Below are positions 33,239 to 42,784 of a stretch of DNA of 42,784 nucleotides, in pieces. Origin of the DNA: an uncultured Saccharospirillaceae bacterium (GTDB lineage: Bacteria > Bacteroidota > Bacteroidia > Flavobacteriales_D > CAJJDF01); contig CATLPG010000023.1 of NCBI GenBank assembly GCA_950054195.1, positions 1 through 42,784 of the forward strand. The letters are read 5' to 3'. Both the position numbers and the translations under genes were made by a program. Below the pieces are notes generated by a model, which did no database searches, had not been told where the DNA came from, and saw only the letters and a list, made by a program, of their open reading frames with translations. Numbering within the stretch: position 1 is the first letter of the stretch; each line of letters begins with the position of its first letter.

Positions 33239-33263
33239 TAACTTTGTATTAAATTCAAATGTA
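33239..33263. promoter_or_regulatory. Candidate divergent -7 elements
   Basis: The short divergent gap holds TAACTTTG on the plus strand (33239-33246), pointing toward the PorV-like gene, and TACATTTG on the minus strand (33263-33256), pointing toward the lipoprotein gene. Both fit TAnnTTTG but neither has a good TTTG at 19 bp. Overlapping divergent promoters are possible. Confidence 0.35.
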
Positions 33264-33324
33264 CAGTTTTTTTTTGTTGGTAGGTTGTCCTATATTTATC
33301 ACTTGTAGAAGAAAACTACTCCAA

Positions 33325-34143
33325 ATGATTAAAAATTTATTACTTCCTCTAGCCTTGGTATTTTCTTTATCAGCAGTTGCAGGGAACGAAAATTTCCCCA
33401 TTGGCGCTAGAGCAACAGGAATGGGAAACACAGGATTAACATTATCTGATGTTTGGTCAACGCATTACAACCAAGCTGGTTTGGCAAACGTTCGCTTAAT
33501 TTCTGCTGGTATATCTTACGAAAGTCGTTTTTTACAATCGGACCTAGGTATCTCTAGTTTTGCTTTCGCTTTACCAATTAAAAGTGGAACATTTGGATTA
33601 AATTATACAGGTTTTGGTGGTAGCTTGTATAATCAATCAAAGGTTGGATTATCCTATGCGATGAAATTTAGCCCTGATATTAGTGGAGGTATTAGCATCA
33701 ATTATCACAATACGCGTTTAGGAGGAGTTTATGGCGGATCAAACGCATTTACATTTGAAGCTGGTGTACTAGCCAAGGTTACAAAAAACCTTCAAATTGG
33801 TTGTCATATTTTTAATCCAACACAATCTAAACTTAATGATTATCAAGACGAGATTATTCCTACCGTTGTTCGATTAGGTTTACGCTATGATTTTTCTGAA
33901 AAAGTAGTAACTCAAATAGAAGTTGAAAAAGATATTGATTTCTCTCCTGTTTACAAGGCAGGGATTGAATATCATCCTTCTGATGTGTTGTATATACGAA
34001 CTGGTATTTCTACTAATCCTTCTTTACCTAGTATTGGTATTGGTTTAAAATTTGATCAGTTTAACATTGATGTAGCAAGTACCTTTCATCCTGTTTTAGG
34101 CGTTACTCCTGCTTTTGGATTGAGATATAATTTAGACAAGTAA
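33325..34143 (+). CDS. PorV/PorQ-like outer-membrane beta-barrel protein
   Basis: Predicted outer-membrane barrel of 272 residues. I chose the ATG at 33325 because it gives a clean signal peptide (MIKNLLLPLALVFSLSAVAGNENF); an ATG at 33259 would add 22 residues that do not fit. The mature N-terminus FPIGARATGMGNTGLTLSDVWSTHYNQAGLANV is the signature of the FadL/PorV/PorQ-like Bacteroidota family. Repeated amphipathic strands follow, ending TPAFGLRYNLDK. PorV and PorQ serve T9SS cargo handling, but this family has many members. It lies 3 bp before the helix-hairpin-helix protein gene and they are surely co-transcribed. Confidence 0.78.
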   Translation: MIKNLLLPLALVFSLSAVAGNENFPIGARATGMGNTGLTLSDVWSTHYNQAGLANVRLISAGISYESRFLQSDLGISSFAFALPIKSGTFGLNYTGFGGSLYNQSKVGLSYAMKFSPDISGGISINYHNTRLGGVYGGSNAFTFEAGVLAKVTKNLQIGCHIFNPTQSKLNDYQDEIIPTVVRLGLRYDFSEKVVTQIEVEKDIDFSPVYKAGIEYHPSDVLYIRTGISTNPSLPSIGIGLKFDQFNIDVASTFHPVLGVTPAFGLRYNLDK

Positions 34144-34146
34144 TTT

Positions 34147-36237
34147 ATGAAGAAAGTTATTCTAATCATACTACTTTTCCCGATGTTGGGTTATTCTCAA
34201 AAAAATAGTGAACTTGAGAAAAATGAAATCATTGAGACTCGTATTGAGTACTTGAGTGGAGAAGATGAAGATCTAGATTATACAACCATTTTTGATAACC
34301 TATACTACTACTTTGATCATCCAATTAACCTAAACCAGGTTAACCAATTAGACAAGCTCCTTGACTTAAGCTTGGTGAACACTATTCAACTTAATGACCT
34401 AAAGCGTCATATTGAAGAAGAAGGAAAGCTAATTTCTATTTTTGAATTACAAGCTATCCCTACGTTTGATATGCAAACAATTCGAAACATTGAACCTTTT
34501 GTAAAAGTTTCAAGAGACTTTGATGATCCTAGCATTACAATTAAGGAAATCTTTAAGTATAGTAAGAGTGAAGTATATGTTAGGAATATTAGAGAATTAC
34601 AGAAACAAGAGGGCTTCTCCCCAATTGATGATGCTGAACTAGAAGAAAATCCAAATAAGAGATACTTAGGTAGTCCTGATAAGCTTTTTTTTCGTTACCG
34701 CTTTAAGTATCAAAATAAAATAAGTGTAAGTTTTTTAGGAGAGAAAGATCAAGGAGAAGAGTTTTTTAAAGGTTCACAAAAGCAAGGGTTTGATTTTTAT
34801 TCTGGGCACTTTTTTATTAAAGGTTTTGGTAAGTTTAAAGCACTTGCCATCGGTGATTACCATGCACAATTTGGACAAGGGCTTACTATTTGGACAGGTC
34901 AAGCATTTGGAAAATCAGCTGATGGTATTAATGGTATTAAGCGAAATGCCTATGGCCTTAAACCCTATGCTGCAGTTGATGAAAATAACTTTTTGAGAGG
35001 AGCTGCTACCACGCTAAGCTTAGGGAAGTTTGAAGTAACAGGTTTTGTTTCTAGAAAAAAAATTGATGCGAATATCGTTCAGGATACCATAGAAGAAGGG
35101 CAAGATATAGCGTTTTCTTCCTTTCAAGCTAGTGGATTTCATCGTACACCTGGCGAATTAGACGATAAAGATGCTGTTGGTGAATTTATTACTGGTGGTA
35201 GAGCTGCATATGTAGGAAAAAGATTAACCATAGGAACACAAGGTATTTACAGTCGATACGATGGTGTGTTTGATCGTAACCTTCAAATTTACAATCAATT
35301 TGATTTTAGTAATAGTCAAAACTCAGTATTTGGAGCTGATTATGATTATGTATATAAAAACTTTAATTTTTTCGGTGAAGTATCTCGAAGTCAAAATGGA
35401 GGAGTTGCTTACATTAATGGTGTATTGATTGCACTTGATCCAAGATTATCATTTACCATAACGCATCGAAGTTATGATAAAGACTTTCAAAACCTATCAG
35501 CCAATGCTTTAGCAGAAGGAAGTAGACCTATCAATGAAAAAGGGATATACATGGGGATGAGTTCTGTTTTAGGCAATGGTTTTACACTCACAGGATATTA
35601 CGATAAATTTCGTTTTCCTTGGTTAAGGTTTCAAACTGATAACATCAGTACGAATGGGTATGAAGCACTAGCTCAACTACATTATAAACCTAAAAGAGGT
35701 ACTACTATGTACTTTCGTATAAGAAGTCAAAATAAGCCAATCAATGATTTTGCTTCTGATGAAATTGAACGTATTAGACCAACTGTTGACCAACTACAGG
35801 TTAACTATCGTTTTAATATTACTTACAAAGTAAGTGACAATTGGTCATTACGTAATAGAGCTGAAGTTATTAATTACACCAGAGGAGATGCTGATAGGGA
35901 AGATGGGTATTTAATTTATCAAGATGTGATATACAAACCAATGGGAAAACCTTATTCGTTTAGTGGACGTTACGCGCTATTCCAAACGGATAGTTACAAC
36001 TCAAGAATATATGCTTATGAAAACGATGTTTTATACTATTTCTACATTCCTGCTTACTATAGAACAGGCTCTAGGTTTTATTTAACTGCCCGCTATAAAT
36101 ACCGTAAAACGTTCGATTTTTGGATAAGATATGGTGTTTGGCAATACCGTAACGAAGAATCTATATTATCAGGTTTAAGTGAAATTCAAGGTAATATTCG
36201 TTCGGATCTAAAGCTAGTTTTTAGATATTTGTTCTAA
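34147..36237 (+). CDS. Outer-membrane protein with N-terminal helix-hairpin-helix domain
   Basis: Predicted envelope protein of 696 residues. The signal peptide (MKKVILIILLFPMLGYSQ) is followed by an acidic segment and a ComEA-like helix-hairpin-helix region (about 57-120; PINLNQVNQLDKLLDLSLVNTIQLNDLKRHIEEEGKLISIFELQAI). The remaining 550 residues are rich in alternating aromatic strands (FFRYRFKYQNKISVSFLGEK, YRTGSRFYLTARYKYRKTFDFWIRYGVW) and end in a barrel-type phenylalanine (LKLVFRYLF). A barrel with a periplasmic helix-hairpin-helix plug is the simplest reading. The function is unknown; DNA binding is one possibility, protein contact another. Confidence 0.75.
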   Translation: MKKVILIILLFPMLGYSQKNSELEKNEIIETRIEYLSGEDEDLDYTTIFDNLYYYFDHPINLNQVNQLDKLLDLSLVNTIQLNDLKRHIEEEGKLISIFELQAIPTFDMQTIRNIEPFVKVSRDFDDPSITIKEIFKYSKSEVYVRNIRELQKQEGFSPIDDAELEENPNKRYLGSPDKLFFRYRFKYQNKISVSFLGEKDQGEEFFKGSQKQGFDFYSGHFFIKGFGKFKALAIGDYHAQFGQGLTIWTGQAFGKSADGINGIKRNAYGLKPYAAVDENNFLRGAATTLSLGKFEVTGFVSRKKIDANIVQDTIEEGQDIAFSSFQASGFHRTPGELDDKDAVGEFITGGRAAYVGKRLTIGTQGIYSRYDGVFDRNLQIYNQFDFSNSQNSVFGADYDYVYKNFNFFGEVSRSQNGGVAYINGVLIALDPRLSFTITHRSYDKDFQNLSANALAEGSRPINEKGIYMGMSSVLGNGFTLTGYYDKFRFPWLRFQTDNISTNGYEALAQLHYKPKRGTTMYFRIRSQNKPINDFASDEIERIRPTVDQLQVNYRFNITYKVSDNWSLRNRAEVINYTRGDADREDGYLIYQDVIYKPMGKPYSFSGRYALFQTDSYNSRIYAYENDVLYYFYIPAYYRTGSRFYLTARYKYRKTFDFWIRYGVWQYRNEESILSGLSEIQGNIRSDLKLVFRYLF

Positions 36238-36407: not shown

Positions 36408-38096
36408 ATGAAGAAAAAGTCAATAACATTCTATTCTTTTTTGTGTATTATTTTTTTCTCCATTGGACATGCTTACTCATTAGATAATAATGAACTCACA
36501 GAATCTTATGCTCAATTCATAAAAAGATCTCGATCTACTAATCCATCGTATGAAGACTTAAAGTTATCTGGTGATATTTATTACTACCTTCAAAACGAAG
36601 ATTCTGCTACTTATTTTTATCATAAAGCTGTAGATAAAGCTATAGGGATTAAAGACTCTGCCAAAATCAGTACTTCTTATTTATTATTAGCAAAATATCA
36701 TACTACTTATGGAAATGAGTTTAAAAAAGCATTTAAATACATTGATACTGCTGAAAACTTCAATTATAAAGCTCCAGAAGTTCTATACCTATATTGCTAT
36801 GTAAAAAGTATAGCCTTAATGCGTATAGGTATTTACGACAAAGCACTAAGTATTTTACTATCTCATAACATTAAAGAAAATGAATCATCTTATCCATCCG
36901 AACATGTCAGTCTCTATTATAGGGTTTCAAGTGTCATTTATGATCGAATAAATGATGATTATAATGCTAATAAATGGTATGAAAAAAGCTTTATGTATGA
37001 TAGCTTACAATATGCTCAAACCCCCAATTTCGTCAATTGTCTAAATTTGAGCTACTCAACCTTTAATATCTCCCTTAGCTATTTAAATAGTAACCAAGCT
37101 AAAGCAATTTATTACCTAAAAAAATCAATCGTATTTTCTAAAGAGTCAAGAAATAAAAAAATTGAAGAAAAAGCATTAATAACGTTAGCAAAATGTTTAT
37201 ACGAGCAAGCAGATACATCAACATCTTTTAAAATACTAGATAGCTTAGATTATGAAAACATGTTCATTGTGAACAAATTTTATTGGTGGAAGTCAAAATT
37301 AAATATTGGCTATCATAAATCGCTAAATAAAAAAAAGCTTTCTCAATTATTAGAAGAAGGAATGTCTGCTAAATGCTTTGATCGAGTTGATCAATTAACA
37401 AACATGACTTTTGATCTATTCAAAAAAAGTGATTCAACTTTTGCTATGAATTTACTCCGCATGAATAAGACTGCTTCAGACTCTCTTGCTGTATCTGATA
37501 TTCGGCAAAATGCATTGCGTATTGAAATGTTGAAAAATATTGAAGAAAGTGAGGAAAAGCAAGCCTTTTTATTACACCAGATGGAAAAAGAAAAAAAACA
37601 AAAATACAACTGGTTACTCATATTCTTTTTAAGTCTTATTATTGTTGTTTTCATACTGTTTACTCTACGCAACAAACTAAAACAATCGAATAAAACACTT
37701 CACAAAGAGCAAAGTACTACTATTCGATTAAAAGAAGATAATGAACTTTTAAAAGAAACCGTTCGAGTTACAGCATTAACTCAAGAAGAAATTGAATATA
37801 GAATTGAAAATTTAAAAGCTAATCTTAAACAACATGCAGACTGGGCCAAGTTTTTGGTTGAATTTGAAAGCTTATTTCCTAATTTATTGAAAAAAATCAC
37901 CCAAAAGTCTTCAGTTAAATTAACTACTAACGAACTAAGACTACTTTGCTTAATTAAGCTAAACCTTACTAACAAAGAAGCCGCAGAATATTTATTTATT
38001 TCTTACGAAGGAGCTAAAAAAGCTCGTTTAAGACTAGCTAAAAAGTTTAATCTAAAAACTGGCAAAGAACTGGCTCAGTTCATACAAAACGTTTAA
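36408..38096 (+). CDS. Membrane-bound TPR/helix-turn-helix transcriptional regulator
   Basis: Predicted one-component sensor-regulator of 562 residues. A signal peptide (about 1-24) leads into TPR-like helices (about 40-345), a transmembrane helix (401-420, NWLLIFFLSLIIVVFILFTL), a coiled coil (about 423-475) and a C-terminal DNA-binding domain (about 505-562; TTNELRLLCLIKLNLTNKEAAEYLFISYEGAKKARLRLAKKFNL) of the LuxR-like helix-turn-helix type. This places the TPR part in the periplasm and the HTH in the cytoplasm. It ends 10 bp before the TGTCCC repeat of the next gene, so control of the two surface-protein genes is plausible but inferred. Confidence 0.85.
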   Translation: MKKKSITFYSFLCIIFFSIGHAYSLDNNELTESYAQFIKRSRSTNPSYEDLKLSGDIYYYLQNEDSATYFYHKAVDKAIGIKDSAKISTSYLLLAKYHTTYGNEFKKAFKYIDTAENFNYKAPEVLYLYCYVKSIALMRIGIYDKALSILLSHNIKENESSYPSEHVSLYYRVSSVIYDRINDDYNANKWYEKSFMYDSLQYAQTPNFVNCLNLSYSTFNISLSYLNSNQAKAIYYLKKSIVFSKESRNKKIEEKALITLAKCLYEQADTSTSFKILDSLDYENMFIVNKFYWWKSKLNIGYHKSLNKKKLSQLLEEGMSAKCFDRVDQLTNMTFDLFKKSDSTFAMNLLRMNKTASDSLAVSDIRQNALRIEMLKNIEESEEKQAFLLHQMEKEKKQKYNWLLIFFLSLIIVVFILFTLRNKLKQSNKTLHKEQSTTIRLKEDNELLKETVRVTALTQEEIEYRIENLKANLKQHADWAKFLVEFESLFPNLLKKITQKSSVKLTTNELRLLCLIKLNLTNKEAAEYLFISYEGAKKARLRLAKKFNLKTGKELAQFIQNV

Positions 38097-38106
38097 AAAC
38101 ACTAAT

Positions 38107-38164
38107 CTGTCCCGTTTTGTCCCATTTTTAACACTGATAACCAACACCTTATTATTTACATTTG
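38107..38164 (+). promoter_or_regulatory. Promoter with tandem TGTCCC repeat (copy 1)
   Basis: TGTCCCGTTT (38108) is followed directly by TGTCCCATTT (38118), a 10-bp direct repeat, one turn of the helix. CACTGATAACCAA follows at 38132, and a consensus -7 element TACATTTG at 38157-38164. There is no good TTTG -33 element. The repeat lies about 45-65 bp upstream of the expected start point, a typical activator position. The same layout, gap-free, occurs at 40505-40562. Confidence 0.65.
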
Positions 38165-38188
38165 TTTTTATCAGTCTTGTAAATTATT

Positions 38189-40408
38189 ATGGTACAAACT
38201 AATGTAATTCGTTTATTAAAAACGCTTGTTTACCTCTCTATTTTCTTAAAATCCTTTTCTTTTTTTTCTCAGGCAGTTACACTTGATTGGGCATTTAGTA
38301 TAGGTACTGCAAGTAATGAAAATGCTAACTCTATTGCTTCTGATAATTCAGGGAATGTATATATAACTGGACACTTTGAAAATACAGTTGATTTTAATCC
38401 AGGAGCAGGAACAAATAATTTAACCGCTGCAGGAGCTAGAGACATTTACATTTTAAAGCTAGATCCAAATGGTAATTTTATTTGGGCTAAAAGAATTGGT
38501 AGCACTGGAACTGACGCAGGAACGGCAATAAGTATAGATAATAATGGAGATGTATGGGTAACTGGAACTTTTGCTGGAACAGTAGATTTTAACCCAAATG
38601 CAGGCACGAACAACTTAATAGCAAGTGGTGCAACCGACTTGTTTATCCTAAAACTTGATAATGCAGGTAATTATATCTGGGCTGGTAATTGTGGTGGAGG
38701 TACACAAATAACATCCACTAATAAAATTGTTTTTGATGCCTCTAACAATGTATATATAGCAGGTAGATACAGGGCAACCGTTGATTTTAATCCTAATGCT
38801 GGCACCTTTAATTTAAGCTCAATAGTGGTTAACAGAAGTAGTGGTTACGTTTTAAAACTCAATGATAATGGAACATTTGTTTGGGCCGTTAGTTATGGTG
38901 GTGCTGAAAACCTTACAGTAGTTGGGCAATCATTAGACAATGCTTCTAACCTTATAGTTTCTGGTAGATTTAGAGGTACTGTAGATTTTGATCCTGGAGC
39001 AGGAACTAATAACATTACTGCTACCGATGCAGGTGGATCTATTAATGACTTATATATTCTTAAGTTAAATTCTTTGGGGAACTTCATTAATGTTCAAACA
39101 ATAGGAAATGGAATAGATGATATGAAACCTCATGCTGTAGAAACAGATATAGCTAATAATATATATTCCTTAGGACTTTTTACTGGAACCGTTGATTTTA
39201 ATCCTGGTGCAGGCACATTTAATCAAACAGGCACATCGGCTCTTGAAACAATATATGTACTTAAACTTAATGCCTCTGGAAATTTCAGCTGGTGTAATAC
39301 AAGAGATGTTGGTGGTTCAATGACTGGTGTTGGTGGTTATGGCGATATGGTTGTGTCTGATGGAGGGTCAGTTATCTTCTCTGAAAGGATGGGGTCAGGA
39401 ACTATTGATTTCGATCCAGGACCTGGTACATTTAATTTAACTGGGATTAATAATGATGGCAGACATGGTTCAATAACCATTTATGACACCTCAGGAAATT
39501 TTGTTGATGCAGGTCTAATAGGTACACCATCTAAAAAACTCGATTTAAATGCTTCTGGAAGTATTCATTATGCTACTGGATTAGGAATTAGTAATGCAAT
39601 GGACTTTGATCCGACAGCCGGAACATTTTTAGTAAATGCTAATCAAGGTAGTATTAACATTGTAATAGCTAAATTTAATGGTTGCATCCCTCCTTCTATA
39701 ACTATTCCTAATAGTGGCAATTTATGTGTAGGCGATACTTTACTACTTCAACCTGATTCTAATGGTACCTGGTCTAGTAGTAATCCTACTGTAGCAATAA
39801 TTAATGACTCTGGAGTATTAATTGGTGTTTCCACAGGAACAACAAACGTTACATACACAAATACCTCAACAGGATGCTCTTCAGATCCATCTGCTGGATT
39901 AATAACAGTTGGAACAATATCCTCTCCTACAGGAACTGGTGGTAATACTTCCATTTGCGGTGGACAATATTTTGTTTTCCCTTCCAGATCATGTGGTGCG
40001 GGAACTGTTGTTTGGTATGACAATGATACCGCTGGAGGCACAGCCTATACGGATTCTGTACAACCTACTTCAACAACCACCTATTACCCTTTTTGTGAAG
40101 ATGGCTCTTGTTCAAGTATCACTGGCGACTCAGCAATAGCCACTGTCACTTGTTTTCCTACTGTTTTTTCGGGATCTACATGGACTTGGACTGGTTGTAC
40201 AGATACCAACTGGTTTAATCCATGTAACTGGGATAGAGGCAGCATTCCAAATACAACGTCTTTAGTAATCATACCTCCTACAGCAAATGATCCTACAATT
40301 TCAAGTGGAACAGCTAATTGTTTTGATATAACTATTCAATCATCCTTGGGAGCAGTTATCAATTTAAATAGTGGTAGTGGAGGTGTTATAAACATACTTA
40401 AACCTTAA
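38189..40408 (+). CDS. Modular secreted surface protein, DFNPGAGT/SBBP-like repeat head
   Basis: Predicted secreted protein of 739 residues with a signal peptide (about 1-30, ending SFFSQ). The head (about 35-490) is seven repeats of roughly 65 residues, each with a VDFNPGAGTNNL motif and a strand such as DLFILKLDNAGNYIWA, resembling SBBP beta-propeller repeats. A BIG2-like Ig domain follows (about 495-570; NGTWSSSNPTVAIINDSGVLIGVSTGTTNVTY). The tail (about 575-739) is an Ig-like domain (TGTGGNTSICGG to VTCFPTV) plus a TWTGCTDTNWFNPCNWDRGSIPNTT module ending INILKP. No recognised type A or B T9SS domain is present. The tail is shared with the next gene. Confidence 0.82.
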   Translation: MVQTNVIRLLKTLVYLSIFLKSFSFFSQAVTLDWAFSIGTASNENANSIASDNSGNVYITGHFENTVDFNPGAGTNNLTAAGARDIYILKLDPNGNFIWAKRIGSTGTDAGTAISIDNNGDVWVTGTFAGTVDFNPNAGTNNLIASGATDLFILKLDNAGNYIWAGNCGGGTQITSTNKIVFDASNNVYIAGRYRATVDFNPNAGTFNLSSIVVNRSSGYVLKLNDNGTFVWAVSYGGAENLTVVGQSLDNASNLIVSGRFRGTVDFDPGAGTNNITATDAGGSINDLYILKLNSLGNFINVQTIGNGIDDMKPHAVETDIANNIYSLGLFTGTVDFNPGAGTFNQTGTSALETIYVLKLNASGNFSWCNTRDVGGSMTGVGGYGDMVVSDGGSVIFSERMGSGTIDFDPGPGTFNLTGINNDGRHGSITIYDTSGNFVDAGLIGTPSKKLDLNASGSIHYATGLGISNAMDFDPTAGTFLVNANQGSINIVIAKFNGCIPPSITIPNSGNLCVGDTLLLQPDSNGTWSSSNPTVAIINDSGVLIGVSTGTTNVTYTNTSTGCSSDPSAGLITVGTISSPTGTGGNTSICGGQYFVFPSRSCGAGTVVWYDNDTAGGTAYTDSVQPTSTTTYYPFCEDGSCSSITGDSAIATVTCFPTVFSGSTWTWTGCTDTNWFNPCNWDRGSIPNTTSLVIIPPTANDPTISSGTANCFDITIQSSLGAVINLNSGSGGVINILKP
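38385..39650 (+). repeat. Seven in-frame repeats of about 195-210 bp
   Basis: Copies of the DFNPGAGT/DFDPGPGT motif begin near 38388, 38581, 38781, 38982, 39191, 39404 and 39598. The last copies are degenerate (MDFDPTAGT). Bases differ mainly at third codon positions, so these are old protein repeats. The acidic DFDPxxGT loop could bind calcium; this is inference. Confidence 0.75.
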
Positions 40409-40437
40409 TATTGAACCGGTGATTATTTTAACCTTTA

Positions 40438-40469
40438 AAGAATTGCTTAATTAGGGCTAAGCAATTCTT
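40438..40469 (+). terminator. 3' stem-loop of the first surface-protein gene
   Basis: Perfect 12-bp arms AAGAATTGCTTA (40438-40449) and TAAGCAATTCTT (40458-40469) around an 8-nt loop, 29 bp after the stop. No T-run follows (ACGGTTC), so it is either a weak terminator or an mRNA-end or processing structure. The surrounding 60 bases recur after the second gene. Confidence 0.6.
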
Positions 40470-40504
40470 ACGGTTCTATTACTATAAATTGGTTATCATA
40501 ACTA

Positions 40505-40562
40505 CTGTCCCGTTTTGTCCCGTTAAAATCACTCAAAACCAAAAGATATGACTTTAACTTGC
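40505..40562 (+). promoter_or_regulatory. Promoter with tandem TGTCCC repeat (copy 2)
   Basis: CTGTCCCGTTTTGTCCC at 40505-40521 is identical to copy 1 over 17 bases. CACTCAAAACCAA at 40530 and a degenerate -7 element TAACTTGC at 40555-40562 sit at exactly the same distances (25 and 50 bp) as in copy 1. The -33 element is again missing. Start codon 40603 follows. Confidence 0.62.
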
Positions 40563-40602
40563 AAAGACTTATAATTTCTAAATAAAACACTTAACTCTAA
40601 GC

Positions 40603-42720
40603 ATGAGCTGTCCATTTCAAAAAAAATATTTATTAATTACTATAATTTCTATTTTATCACTTGAACTAACTGGACAGTTCTCAAACAAACATTATCTACC
40701 AGTATCTGTTATTAATACAAGATGGAGTGTAGATGATCCTCAATACCGTTTGGTTTCTAGAGAAACGTTTAATGTTACAGTTACAGTTAGAAATGCTAGA
40801 ACTAGCACATTATTAGCTACATTAATTATTCCTCCAAATGGCGAGGTTGCTTATAATTCCCCTTACACACATACAACAATGACATCTACCTCATCAAACA
40901 AGGGAATTGTTATGGAAGGGAATGGTAGATTTTCTGTAACAGGACTCGGAGACCCGGTAGAAACAACAATGGGTTTTGCCTGGGTGTCTAAAGGAGGTTC
41001 AGGTTTAGGAAAAAACTTTAGAGCTTATGCTCCTACCAATGATTTTAGAACATATGCAAGCGATATCTATGGGAATTTTTATTCTGTAATCGCTACTAAA
41101 AATTGTCAAGTTACATTTTCTGGATTTCCTCAAGGAAATGGGACATTCTCTTTAAATGCTGGACAATGTTATACCTTGTATGCTGGGAATAGTGATAACG
41201 AAAATTTATTTATTTCAGGTATCATTACTTCGACAGAAGATATAGCTGTTCTCAATCAAACAATTCAATTTTATAATGGTGGAATAAATGCGAATACTAC
41301 TGGGGGCTCTGATGATGGAGCCGATATGCTTGTTCCTATTCAAAATGCAGGAAGTTACTACGTTGCTCAGGAAGTCCAGTCTGACTATATAAGTATAATC
41401 GGACTCTATGACAATACTACAATTACAATTAATGGGATTCTTCAAGCGACAATTAACAAGGGGCAAAGCAGACATTATGATGGTGCAAGTTGGGTTTCTA
41501 GCACAATGGAAATAGAAACCAATAAACCAGTCTATGCCTTTCAACTTATGTCTGCACCCCAAAGTGGCTATGTGTTATTACCTCCTGTTGATGACTGTGG
41601 AGACCAGCAAACATTCTCTGTTATACCTTCAGGTAATTATAATGATCAAACACTAAGTATAGTATCTTCTCTAGGTGCCTCTATAACCATTGATGGTACT
41701 CCAATAACTCCAACATCATCTAATGCAAATTATCAATTCTACATCGAAACTAGTTTTGATGGCACAAGTCCTAGGATAATTAATTCTGATAAATCACTAA
41801 ATGTAACTGCTTCTACTTATGAAGGTGCTGGTTCTACCGGAACTAGTTACGCTGGTTGGGGTGATGTTGAAGCAAAGGATTCAATTGACTTGATTAGTAG
41901 CACATGTATAAACGATAGTATTAGATTTGTTGTAGATATTTGTGGTAATGAAGGAAGCATTTCAGCTAACTACCCAGTTAGTCTGTATTTAGGTAATCCT
42001 TTTGATTCGACTATCTCTTCTACAAGACTTTCCACAAAGTATACATCAACAATTATCGATAACGTTACTTGTGAACAGTTTATATTTAAAGCTCCATCAA
42101 ACATCATCAATGATTCGTTATTTATTGTTTCAAATGCAGATAGCAGTGATTCCCTACCTTTGAATCAGGACTCAATTTCTAGCCGTTGCTCGCCCAATAG
42201 ATCTATAATAAGTATTGAAAACTTTTTACCAGTCACTCCAACTGGCACTGGAGGAAACAATAGTGTTTGTGGTAGCAATTACTTTATTTTTCCTGTAAGA
42301 AATTGTGCTACAGGAACAATTGAATGGTATGATAATGATTCTGCGGGAGGAATATCATTCACAGACTCAGTTCAACCATCAACAACTACAACATATTATC
42401 CGTTTTGTAACGATAGCTCATGTCTAAGCCCAGCTGGTGACTCTGCTATTGTTACTGTAACGTGTTCCCCTACTGTTTTTTCAGGTTCTACTTGGACGTG
42501 GACAGGCTGTACGAATACCGATTGGTTTAATCCATGCAATTGGGACAGGGGAAGCATCCCTAATACAACCTCGTTTGTGGTAATTCCTCCAACTGCGAAT
42601 GACCCTACTATATCTAGTGGAACGGCAAACTGTTTTGACATAACCGTTCAATCATCTTTAGGAGCAGTCGTTAATTTAAATAGTAGCAGTGGAGGTGCAA
42701 TAAACATATTAAAACCTTAA
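40603..42720 (+). CDS. Modular secreted surface protein, IgGFc-binding-like head
   Basis: Predicted secreted protein of 705 residues with a signal peptide (about 1-25, ending LELTGQ). The head (about 27-420) resembles the bacterial IgGFc-binding-protein N-terminal family: ISTEDIAVLNQTIQ, DDGADMLVPIQNAGSYYVAQEVQSDYISIIGLYDNTTITINGI, NKPVYAFQLMSAPQSGYVLLPPVDDCG. A linker with cysteine-containing strands (about 425-540) precedes the tail: an Ig-like domain (TGTGGNNSVCGS to VTCSPTV), then TWTGCTNTDWFNPCNWDRGSIPNTT ending INILKP. The tail is about 80% identical in protein to that of the preceding gene, while the heads are unrelated. Binding of IgG should not be assumed; this family is widespread in marine Bacteroidota. 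Confidence 0.82.
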   Translation: MSCPFQKKYLLITIISILSLELTGQFSNKHYLPVSVINTRWSVDDPQYRLVSRETFNVTVTVRNARTSTLLATLIIPPNGEVAYNSPYTHTTMTSTSSNKGIVMEGNGRFSVTGLGDPVETTMGFAWVSKGGSGLGKNFRAYAPTNDFRTYASDIYGNFYSVIATKNCQVTFSGFPQGNGTFSLNAGQCYTLYAGNSDNENLFISGIITSTEDIAVLNQTIQFYNGGINANTTGGSDDGADMLVPIQNAGSYYVAQEVQSDYISIIGLYDNTTITINGILQATINKGQSRHYDGASWVSSTMEIETNKPVYAFQLMSAPQSGYVLLPPVDDCGDQQTFSVIPSGNYNDQTLSIVSSLGASITIDGTPITPTSSNANYQFYIETSFDGTSPRIINSDKSLNVTASTYEGAGSTGTSYAGWGDVEAKDSIDLISSTCINDSIRFVVDICGNEGSISANYPVSLYLGNPFDSTISSTRLSTKYTSTIIDNVTCEQFIFKAPSNIINDSLFIVSNADSSDSLPLNQDSISSRCSPNRSIISIENFLPVTPTGTGGNNSVCGSNYFIFPVRNCATGTIEWYDNDSAGGISFTDSVQPSTTTTYYPFCNDSSCLSPAGDSAIVTVTCSPTVFSGSTWTWTGCTNTDWFNPCNWDRGSIPNTTSFVVIPPTANDPTISSGTANCFDITVQSSLGAVVNLNSSSGGAINILKP

Positions 42721-42749
42721 TATGAGCCGGTGATTGTTTAAACCTTTAA

Positions 42750-42779
42750 AGAATTGCTTAATCGGGGCTAAGCAATTCT
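42750..42779 (+). terminator. 3' stem-loop of the second surface-protein gene
   Basis: Arms AGAATTGCTTA (42750-42760) and TAAGCAATTCT (42769-42779) around an 8-nt loop, 29 bp after the stop. It is the counterpart of 40438-40469, with changes confined mostly to the loop and one terminal pair. The window ends 5 bases later, still inside the conserved segment. Confidence 0.6.
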
Positions 42780-42784
42780 CACGG

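Follow-up and report, generated by a model that had tools for sequence, protein, structure and literature searches.

Surface export in Bacteroidota is understood mainly via three classes of T9SS C-terminal sorting domain (CTD), named A, B and C, of which type C shows that new classes arise (PMC10202324). These CTDs (A, PF18962/TIGR04183; B, PF13585/TIGR04131; and C) are units of 70-100 residues, reused at the C-terminus of proteins with unrelated heads. Bacteroidota also possess one-component trans-envelope regulators with a TPR sensor and a LuxR- or AraC-type HTH, in which a signal peptide or TM segment is followed by the TPR part, an internal TM segment, a coiled coil and the C-terminal HTH. 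In the open-access literature, no account was found of TPR-LuxR regulators that form pairs with genes for surface proteins.

The stretch of DNA analysed here (the window, 42,784 nucleotides) is the whole of contig C23 from a 3.27 Mb genome in 118 contigs. The genome is of Bacteroidota type and its T9SS machinery is present. Two adjacent genes at the end of the window, genes 1 and 2, terminate in a module which resembles the T9SS CTDs in being a reused C-terminal unit combined with unrelated heads; however, it gives no sequence match to types A and B, its predicted fold is another one, and a sister clade of N-terminal modules exists. The explanation that we favour, with moderate confidence, is that genes 1 and 2 arose by tandem duplication within a family of module surface proteins, that the module serves in sorting or attachment from its terminal position, and that the pair is switched by an adjoining trans-envelope regulator of the kind described above.

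The tandem gene pair and its shared tail

The features of the locus are the following.

36408-38096, + strand: presumed local regulator, ORF of 562 aa, which precedes the tandem genes 1 and 2
38108-38123, + strand: probable operator of gene 1 (predicted), direct repeat TGTCCCGTTTTGTCCC with a 10-bp phase
38189-40408, + strand: gene 1, ORF of 739 aa, secreted; a signal peptide precedes an SBBP-like propeller head of seven repeats, followed by Ig-like segments and the C-terminal module
39917-40150, + strand: Ig_7-like part of the gene 1 tail, boundaries by alignment with gene 2
40181-40405, + strand: module of gene 1, 75 aa, which ends ...INILKP at the stop
40409-40481, + strand: 3' element of gene 1, in which a GAACCG/CGGTTC outer stem encloses a 12-bp hairpin (AAGAATTGCTTA/TAAGCAATTCTT)
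40506-40521, + strand: probable operator of gene 2 (predicted), identical direct repeat TGTCCCGTTTTGTCCC
40603-42720, + strand: gene 2, ORF of 705 aa, secreted, with a head of no known family, an Ig_7-like domain and C-terminal module
42229-42462, + strand: in gene 2, Ig_7-like domain of the CHU_C-associated type, PF19081 below the Pfam cut-off
42493-42717, + strand: module of gene 2, 75 aa, C-terminal, predicted compact beta fold (pLDDT 88)
42723-42784, + strand: 3' element of gene 2, sequence match to copy 1, which ends at the contig end

An earlier note on this DNA had described genes 1 and 2 as sharing a C-terminal part of about 155 residues, and over their C-terminal 155 residues the two proteins indeed agree in 123 (79%). 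The nucleotide differences in this tail fell at codon positions 1, 2 and 3 in the numbers 25, 13 and 82, with a dN of 0.129 and a dS of 2.26 (NG86); as dS is saturated, these values say no more than that the copies are old and the selection purifying, and the age is a lower bound. The tail is clearly under purifying selection on the protein, which agrees with the proposal of old copies that differ mostly at silent positions. It consists of an Ig_7-like domain, which in gene 2 matched PF19081 with an E-value of 1.1e-4 (score 22.8 against a cut-off of 27.3), and of the terminal 75-residue module.

The heads of the two proteins fared differently. The propeller-like head with seven copies proposed for gene 1 was confirmed by seven xDF[ND]P units, by a PF06739 match above the cut-off and by a match to the NCBIfam SBBP-propeller. 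In contrast, the "IgGFc-binding-like" head of gene 2 had to be abandoned, since no Pfam family matched it even at E<=10. Signal-peptide-like segments open both gene products, but the two sequences are dissimilar. The head of gene 1 is 39% identical to a paralogue (L122 6834-8522) in which, by appearance, a type A-like T9SS CTD replaces the Ig-like domain and the module. A 1164-aa protein (L022 6119-9613) has in common with gene 2 just the middle domain (residues 427-514, 39%), and because the match is confined to that region this domain, too, must be shuffled. Just upstream of the regulator lie two adjacent genes (33259-34143 and 34147-36237), which by eye appear outer-membrane-protein-like, as a PorV/PorP-like and a helix-hairpin-helix protein.

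Promoter block and 3' element of the pair

The promoter similarity between the two genes is shorter than the 60 bp or so first claimed: the block 38107-38144 is 82% identical to 40505-40542 over 38 bp, but just 65% identity is found over 60 bp. Its centre is a 16-bp direct repeat, TGTCCCGTTTTGTCCC, which is identical at both genes and, in this exact form, is present in the genome only there. The 3' elements, on the other hand, show the extent that had been announced, with 90% identity over 62 bp. Copy 1 folds with a z-score of -4.15; the contig stops within copy 2. The element is like a terminator or mRNA end; it matched no Rfam family at E<=1, and no copy was found in the assembly beyond genes 1 and 2. 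Since non-coding sequence is conserved at 90% beside saturated silent sites, the 3' element must be under selection or have been homogenised.

A genome-wide cassette with a common promoter and 3' element was rejected, as both are confined to this pair. What remains of the cassette is the reuse of the tail module with different heads, in 16 copies across the genome. For the 3' element of the pair, and for the length over which the two tails are alike, local tandem duplication is indeed the explanation.

Module copies in this and other genomes

A genome search for the tail recovered its terminal 75 residues, in 16 intact or contig-cut copies and one degenerate copy. The module occupies the extreme C-terminus in six of the 16 (genes 1 and 2, C45, C53, C1 and the cut copy ending C84), and the mature N-terminus, directly after the signal peptide, in the ten others (C38 among them). 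Thus the tail, which had been taken as purely C-terminal, is built on a module found at either protein end, in two position-specific clades. The C-terminal form reads WTWTGC..DTDWF.PCNWD ... LNVxKP-stop. The heads with which the module is paired include propellers, Ig-like arrays, "NPSFE" carbohydrate-binding-like domains and Fib_succ_major, and similar head types occur with both N- and C-terminal modules.

In a Saprospiraceae MAG, several module copies ended within two residues of the end of the matched module, mostly in LN[VI]xKP. One C-terminal copy in this MAG (L144) is preceded by the Ig-like domain of the window, i.e. the whole tail recurs, and one N-terminal module copy is also present. 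In a maximum-likelihood tree of 28 modules, the C-terminal and N-terminal copies were split by one change (support 97/94), while shuffling of the positions gave a mean of 8.8 changes and none of 500 shuffles was as clean. The C-terminal clade covers this genome, Saprospiraceae and one Bacteroidales MAG, and the heads are unrelated. The placement of the module is therefore conserved while the heads change.

Across 399 genomes of the order, the module has expanded in this one only; five others contain one strong copy each, and no copy was found in the same-genus sister genome (n=1) and in four genomes of the family. The idea that the module is common in the order was thus rejected. In other families of the order, a related motif starts long beta-solenoid-like stretches.

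The degenerate copy (C10:63675-63862), with an in-frame TAG and a frame change, is 3.6 kb away from an N-terminal copy that is intact. At C84:9639-10039 and at window position 42784, a contig breaks off within a module gene or just behind it. As two contigs end at module genes, the assembly may miss further copies. The window stops within the second 3' element because the assembled contig stops there; no other copy of that element is present in the assembly.

Predicted fold and relatives of the module

No Pfam family matched the module above the cut-off. The AlphaFold2 model of the gene 2 module is a small beta fold, predicted with confidence (pLDDT 88). The module profile matched residues 891-956 of PDB 8gl6_D, a chain named RemA, with an E-value of 1.1e-9; this chain and the solenoid starts of large Bacteroidota surface proteins share the signature W.G..DTDW...NW....P....V.IP with the module. 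In 8gl6_D, which is of gliding adhesin type, the segment is internal, whereas here the module is a stand-alone terminal unit of 75 aa with added cysteines.

The best fold match was the N-terminal beta-helix of amnionless (PDB 6gje_A 26-90, PF14828), a vertebrate protein. All scores of this comparison were weak, both by VIA (Z 5.2, 64 residues, rmsd 2.6 A) and by Foldseek (E 1.4, prob 0.47). Weak Pfam Amnionless matches were obtained for eight of 15 module members, the best PF14828 E-value being 0.013, below the 30.4-bit cut-off for family membership. The likeness of the predicted fold to amnionless may serve as a lead rather than as a claim of homology.

Regulators adjoining module genes

The regulator 36408-38096 comprises an N-terminal, presumed periplasmic region, a TM segment (residues 402-420), a coiled coil and a C-terminal LuxR/response-regulator-like HTH. 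TPR gave no Pfam match in this protein, and the assignment is made by paralogy; TPR matches above the cut-off were found in 8/8 LuxR-type paralogues scanned. The genome contains eleven strong members of one TPR-TM-LuxR-HTH family, nine of which adjoin module genes (ten genes), on C23, C45, C1, C15 (two alternating pairs), C2, C4, C5 and C84. The adjacency expected by chance is about 1% per regulator, from 16 module genes among some 2,900 genes (estimated from the genome size). In all nine linked regulators, one TM segment separates the sensor part from the HTH, whose profile matches DNA-binding domains of NarL/LuxR-type response regulators. One locus (L021 6950-12856) displays a same-strand tandem of regulator, module gene, regulator and module gene.

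For six module genes, no TPR-LuxR regulator is seen nearby (C53, C89, C10, C38, C47 and the contig-cut end of C84); that on C47 is adjoined by a regulator which combines a TPR-like part with an AraC-type HTH. The Saprospiraceae MAG has its regulators and its modules on separate contigs, and the pairing is thus lineage-specific and not needed by the module. Pairing as a universal rule was rejected on both counts. Furthermore, the divergence of regulators and that of modules were uncorrelated (Mantel p 0.12 and 0.47), so that co-divergence as duplicated units is unsupported. In the sister species, related regulators precede other secreted proteins which lack the module, several with type A-like ends. 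Therefore, the general design would be a regulator with a surface protein, the module being the partner in this lineage.

Some further arrangements were observed. In the sister species (G001; L125 5237-13004 and L126 1-7573), regulator homologues are followed by a secreted protein whose CTD is type A-like and then by an RHS-like protein; both RHS-like proteins (1420-1518 aa) are cut by the locus ends. Two TPR proteins with a histidine-kinase-like end flank an N-terminal module gene of a Saprospiraceae MAG (L088 2543-4243 and 5790-7478), so that TPR sensors and a module gene are paired there as well. A module gene of a Flavobacteriales MAG is preceded, two genes away, by the gene of a TPR-TM-winged HTH protein (L085 2268-3524); the layout is similar, the HTH family different.

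A motif shared by regulator-linked promoters

By expectation maximisation, a motif, CGTTTTGTCCAC / CgTTTTGTCCAC, was found in 10/10 regulator-linked module promoters. The log-likelihood of CgTTTTGTCCAC was 43.9, versus 21.5 to 27.5 in six dinucleotide-shuffled sets, and no good site was present in five module genes without a TPR-LuxR regulator. In leave-one-out scoring against 176 other promoters, drawn from the genome stretches examined, 8/10 promoters were beaten by at most five of the background promoters, two of which form the other half of a shared divergent region (at C84 and at C4). The two others were C45, which was weak (beaten by 13/176), and C5, which was not significant (62/176). 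A second half-site is present at 10-12 bp in five promoters, a spacing which fits a dimer on one helix face.

The TGTCCCGTTTTGTCCC of the window is a variant of the motif, with C for A. When both window genes were left out, their sites scored at the 6% level of random 140-mers; that they belong to the motif set is therefore owed to the tandem repeat no less than to the matrix. Apart from the divergent region shared at C84, the motif is missing from regulator promoters, which speaks against autoregulation as a general feature. The recurring control system can be read as an adjoining TPR-TM-HTH regulator together with a shared but divergent putative operator, of which TGTCCCGTTTTGTCCC would be one form. 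The gene pair singled out in the earlier note is a true local case of a larger pattern, in which the module, the two clades and the proposed regulator-operator pairing recur.

Discussion

The genome encodes SprA and gives 87 matches to the type A CTD (PF18962). Neither this CTD nor type B (PF13585, CHU_C) was matched in genes 1 and 2 or in the other module proteins scanned; the nearest feature to type B in gene 2 is the CHU_C-associated Ig_7 domain, below the cut-off. A role in surface sorting or attachment is made likely by these missing CTDs in a genome so rich in them, by the strict C-terminal placement with different heads, which fits a C-terminal signal, and by the relative of the gene 1 head that ends in a type A-like CTD instead. 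The most probable role of the module's C-terminal form is that of a terminal domain for sorting or attachment.

A stricter version would see in the C-terminal module a further class of T9SS sorting domain, one that the translocon recognises as it does the A, B and C CTDs, with the head exported through SprA. The placement at the very last residues, the conserved LN[VI]xKP end in distant Bacteroidota with unrelated heads, the presence of a T9SS and the natural exchange of CTD and module on propeller heads all speak for it, as do the missing CTDs, and type C CTDs show that classes can be added (PMC10202324). We nevertheless find it unlikely: type A CTDs are Ig-like beta-sandwiches, whereas for the module a small beta fold without such a match is predicted, and the segment related to the module lies inside the RemA-named chain 8gl6 (891-956), a type A substrate. 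Moreover, a C-terminal signal is out of the question for the N-terminal clade, whose proteins are likewise devoid of a CTD, so that a general terminal attachment or sorting domain is favoured over a strict T9SS signal. Another reading is that of a mere stand-alone adhesive or oligomerisation domain, derived as a truncated beta-solenoid start, which has no sorting role and whose proteins use another export route and have inherited their domain order. The motif that begins long solenoid-like stretches in other families of the order and the occurrence of the same kinds of heads with both module positions are in keeping with this idea, which is possible but doubtful, as position-specific clades across lineages and exact C-terminal ends exceed what loose domain order would produce.

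With regard to control, the module protein itself might be the signal, the periplasmic TPR part of the regulator binding its partner and thereby sensing export in a feedback loop. The adjacency in 9/11 cases and the predicted periplasmic location of the TPR parts would suit such a loop; it is quite unlikely, given that regulator homologues of the sister species adjoin secreted proteins without a module, that several module genes have no regulator and that co-divergence is absent. Finally, ordinary local tandem duplication with replacement of one head would account for the shared promoter, tail and 3' element, the rest being coincidence. The confinement of the 3' element and of the exact operator repeat to this pair speaks for it, but as a full explanation it is contradicted by the 16 module copies, the regulators and the shared motif, and we hold it to be highly improbable.

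In the explanation that we favour, genes 1 and 2 would be tandem duplicates within a secreted family with a beta-rich terminal module and interchangeable heads. The C-terminal module would place the head on the cell surface, and would stand at the position which a T9SS sorting domain occupies in other proteins of this genome. The TPR part of the regulator, probably periplasmic, would sense a signal, and the cytoplasmic LuxR-type HTH would bind a predicted TTTTGTCCAC site, often a direct repeat of 10-12 bp, some 50-110 bp ahead of the module gene. In the window, genes 1 and 2 would both answer to the regulator 36408-38096 via a TGTCCCGTTTTGTCCC repeat each, and their mRNAs would end at the 3' hairpins. 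An extension to which we assign a low probability is that the C-terminal clade represents a new, unrelated class of sorting or attachment domain of the T9SS or of another outer-membrane route, that the sister clade does the equivalent from the N-terminus, and that its expansion in this genome has produced a set of surface proteins which are switched individually, each by a trans-envelope TPR-HTH regulator of its own, with a common operator code.

An end-specific module in proteins without a recognised CTD is a concrete candidate for another export route or mode of attachment, and the regulator pairing with a shared putative operator provides a testable model of how the surface proteins to be displayed are chosen.

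The gene just before a module gene often encodes a fibre-like protein ("VGIGT..PD.SA.LD") or a coiled-coil-ended protein. Such upstream genes were observed in L084, L085, L086, L087, L090 and L092 and, in this genome, in L024 (11835-12539); their products are possible partners or co-displayed fibres of the module proteins.
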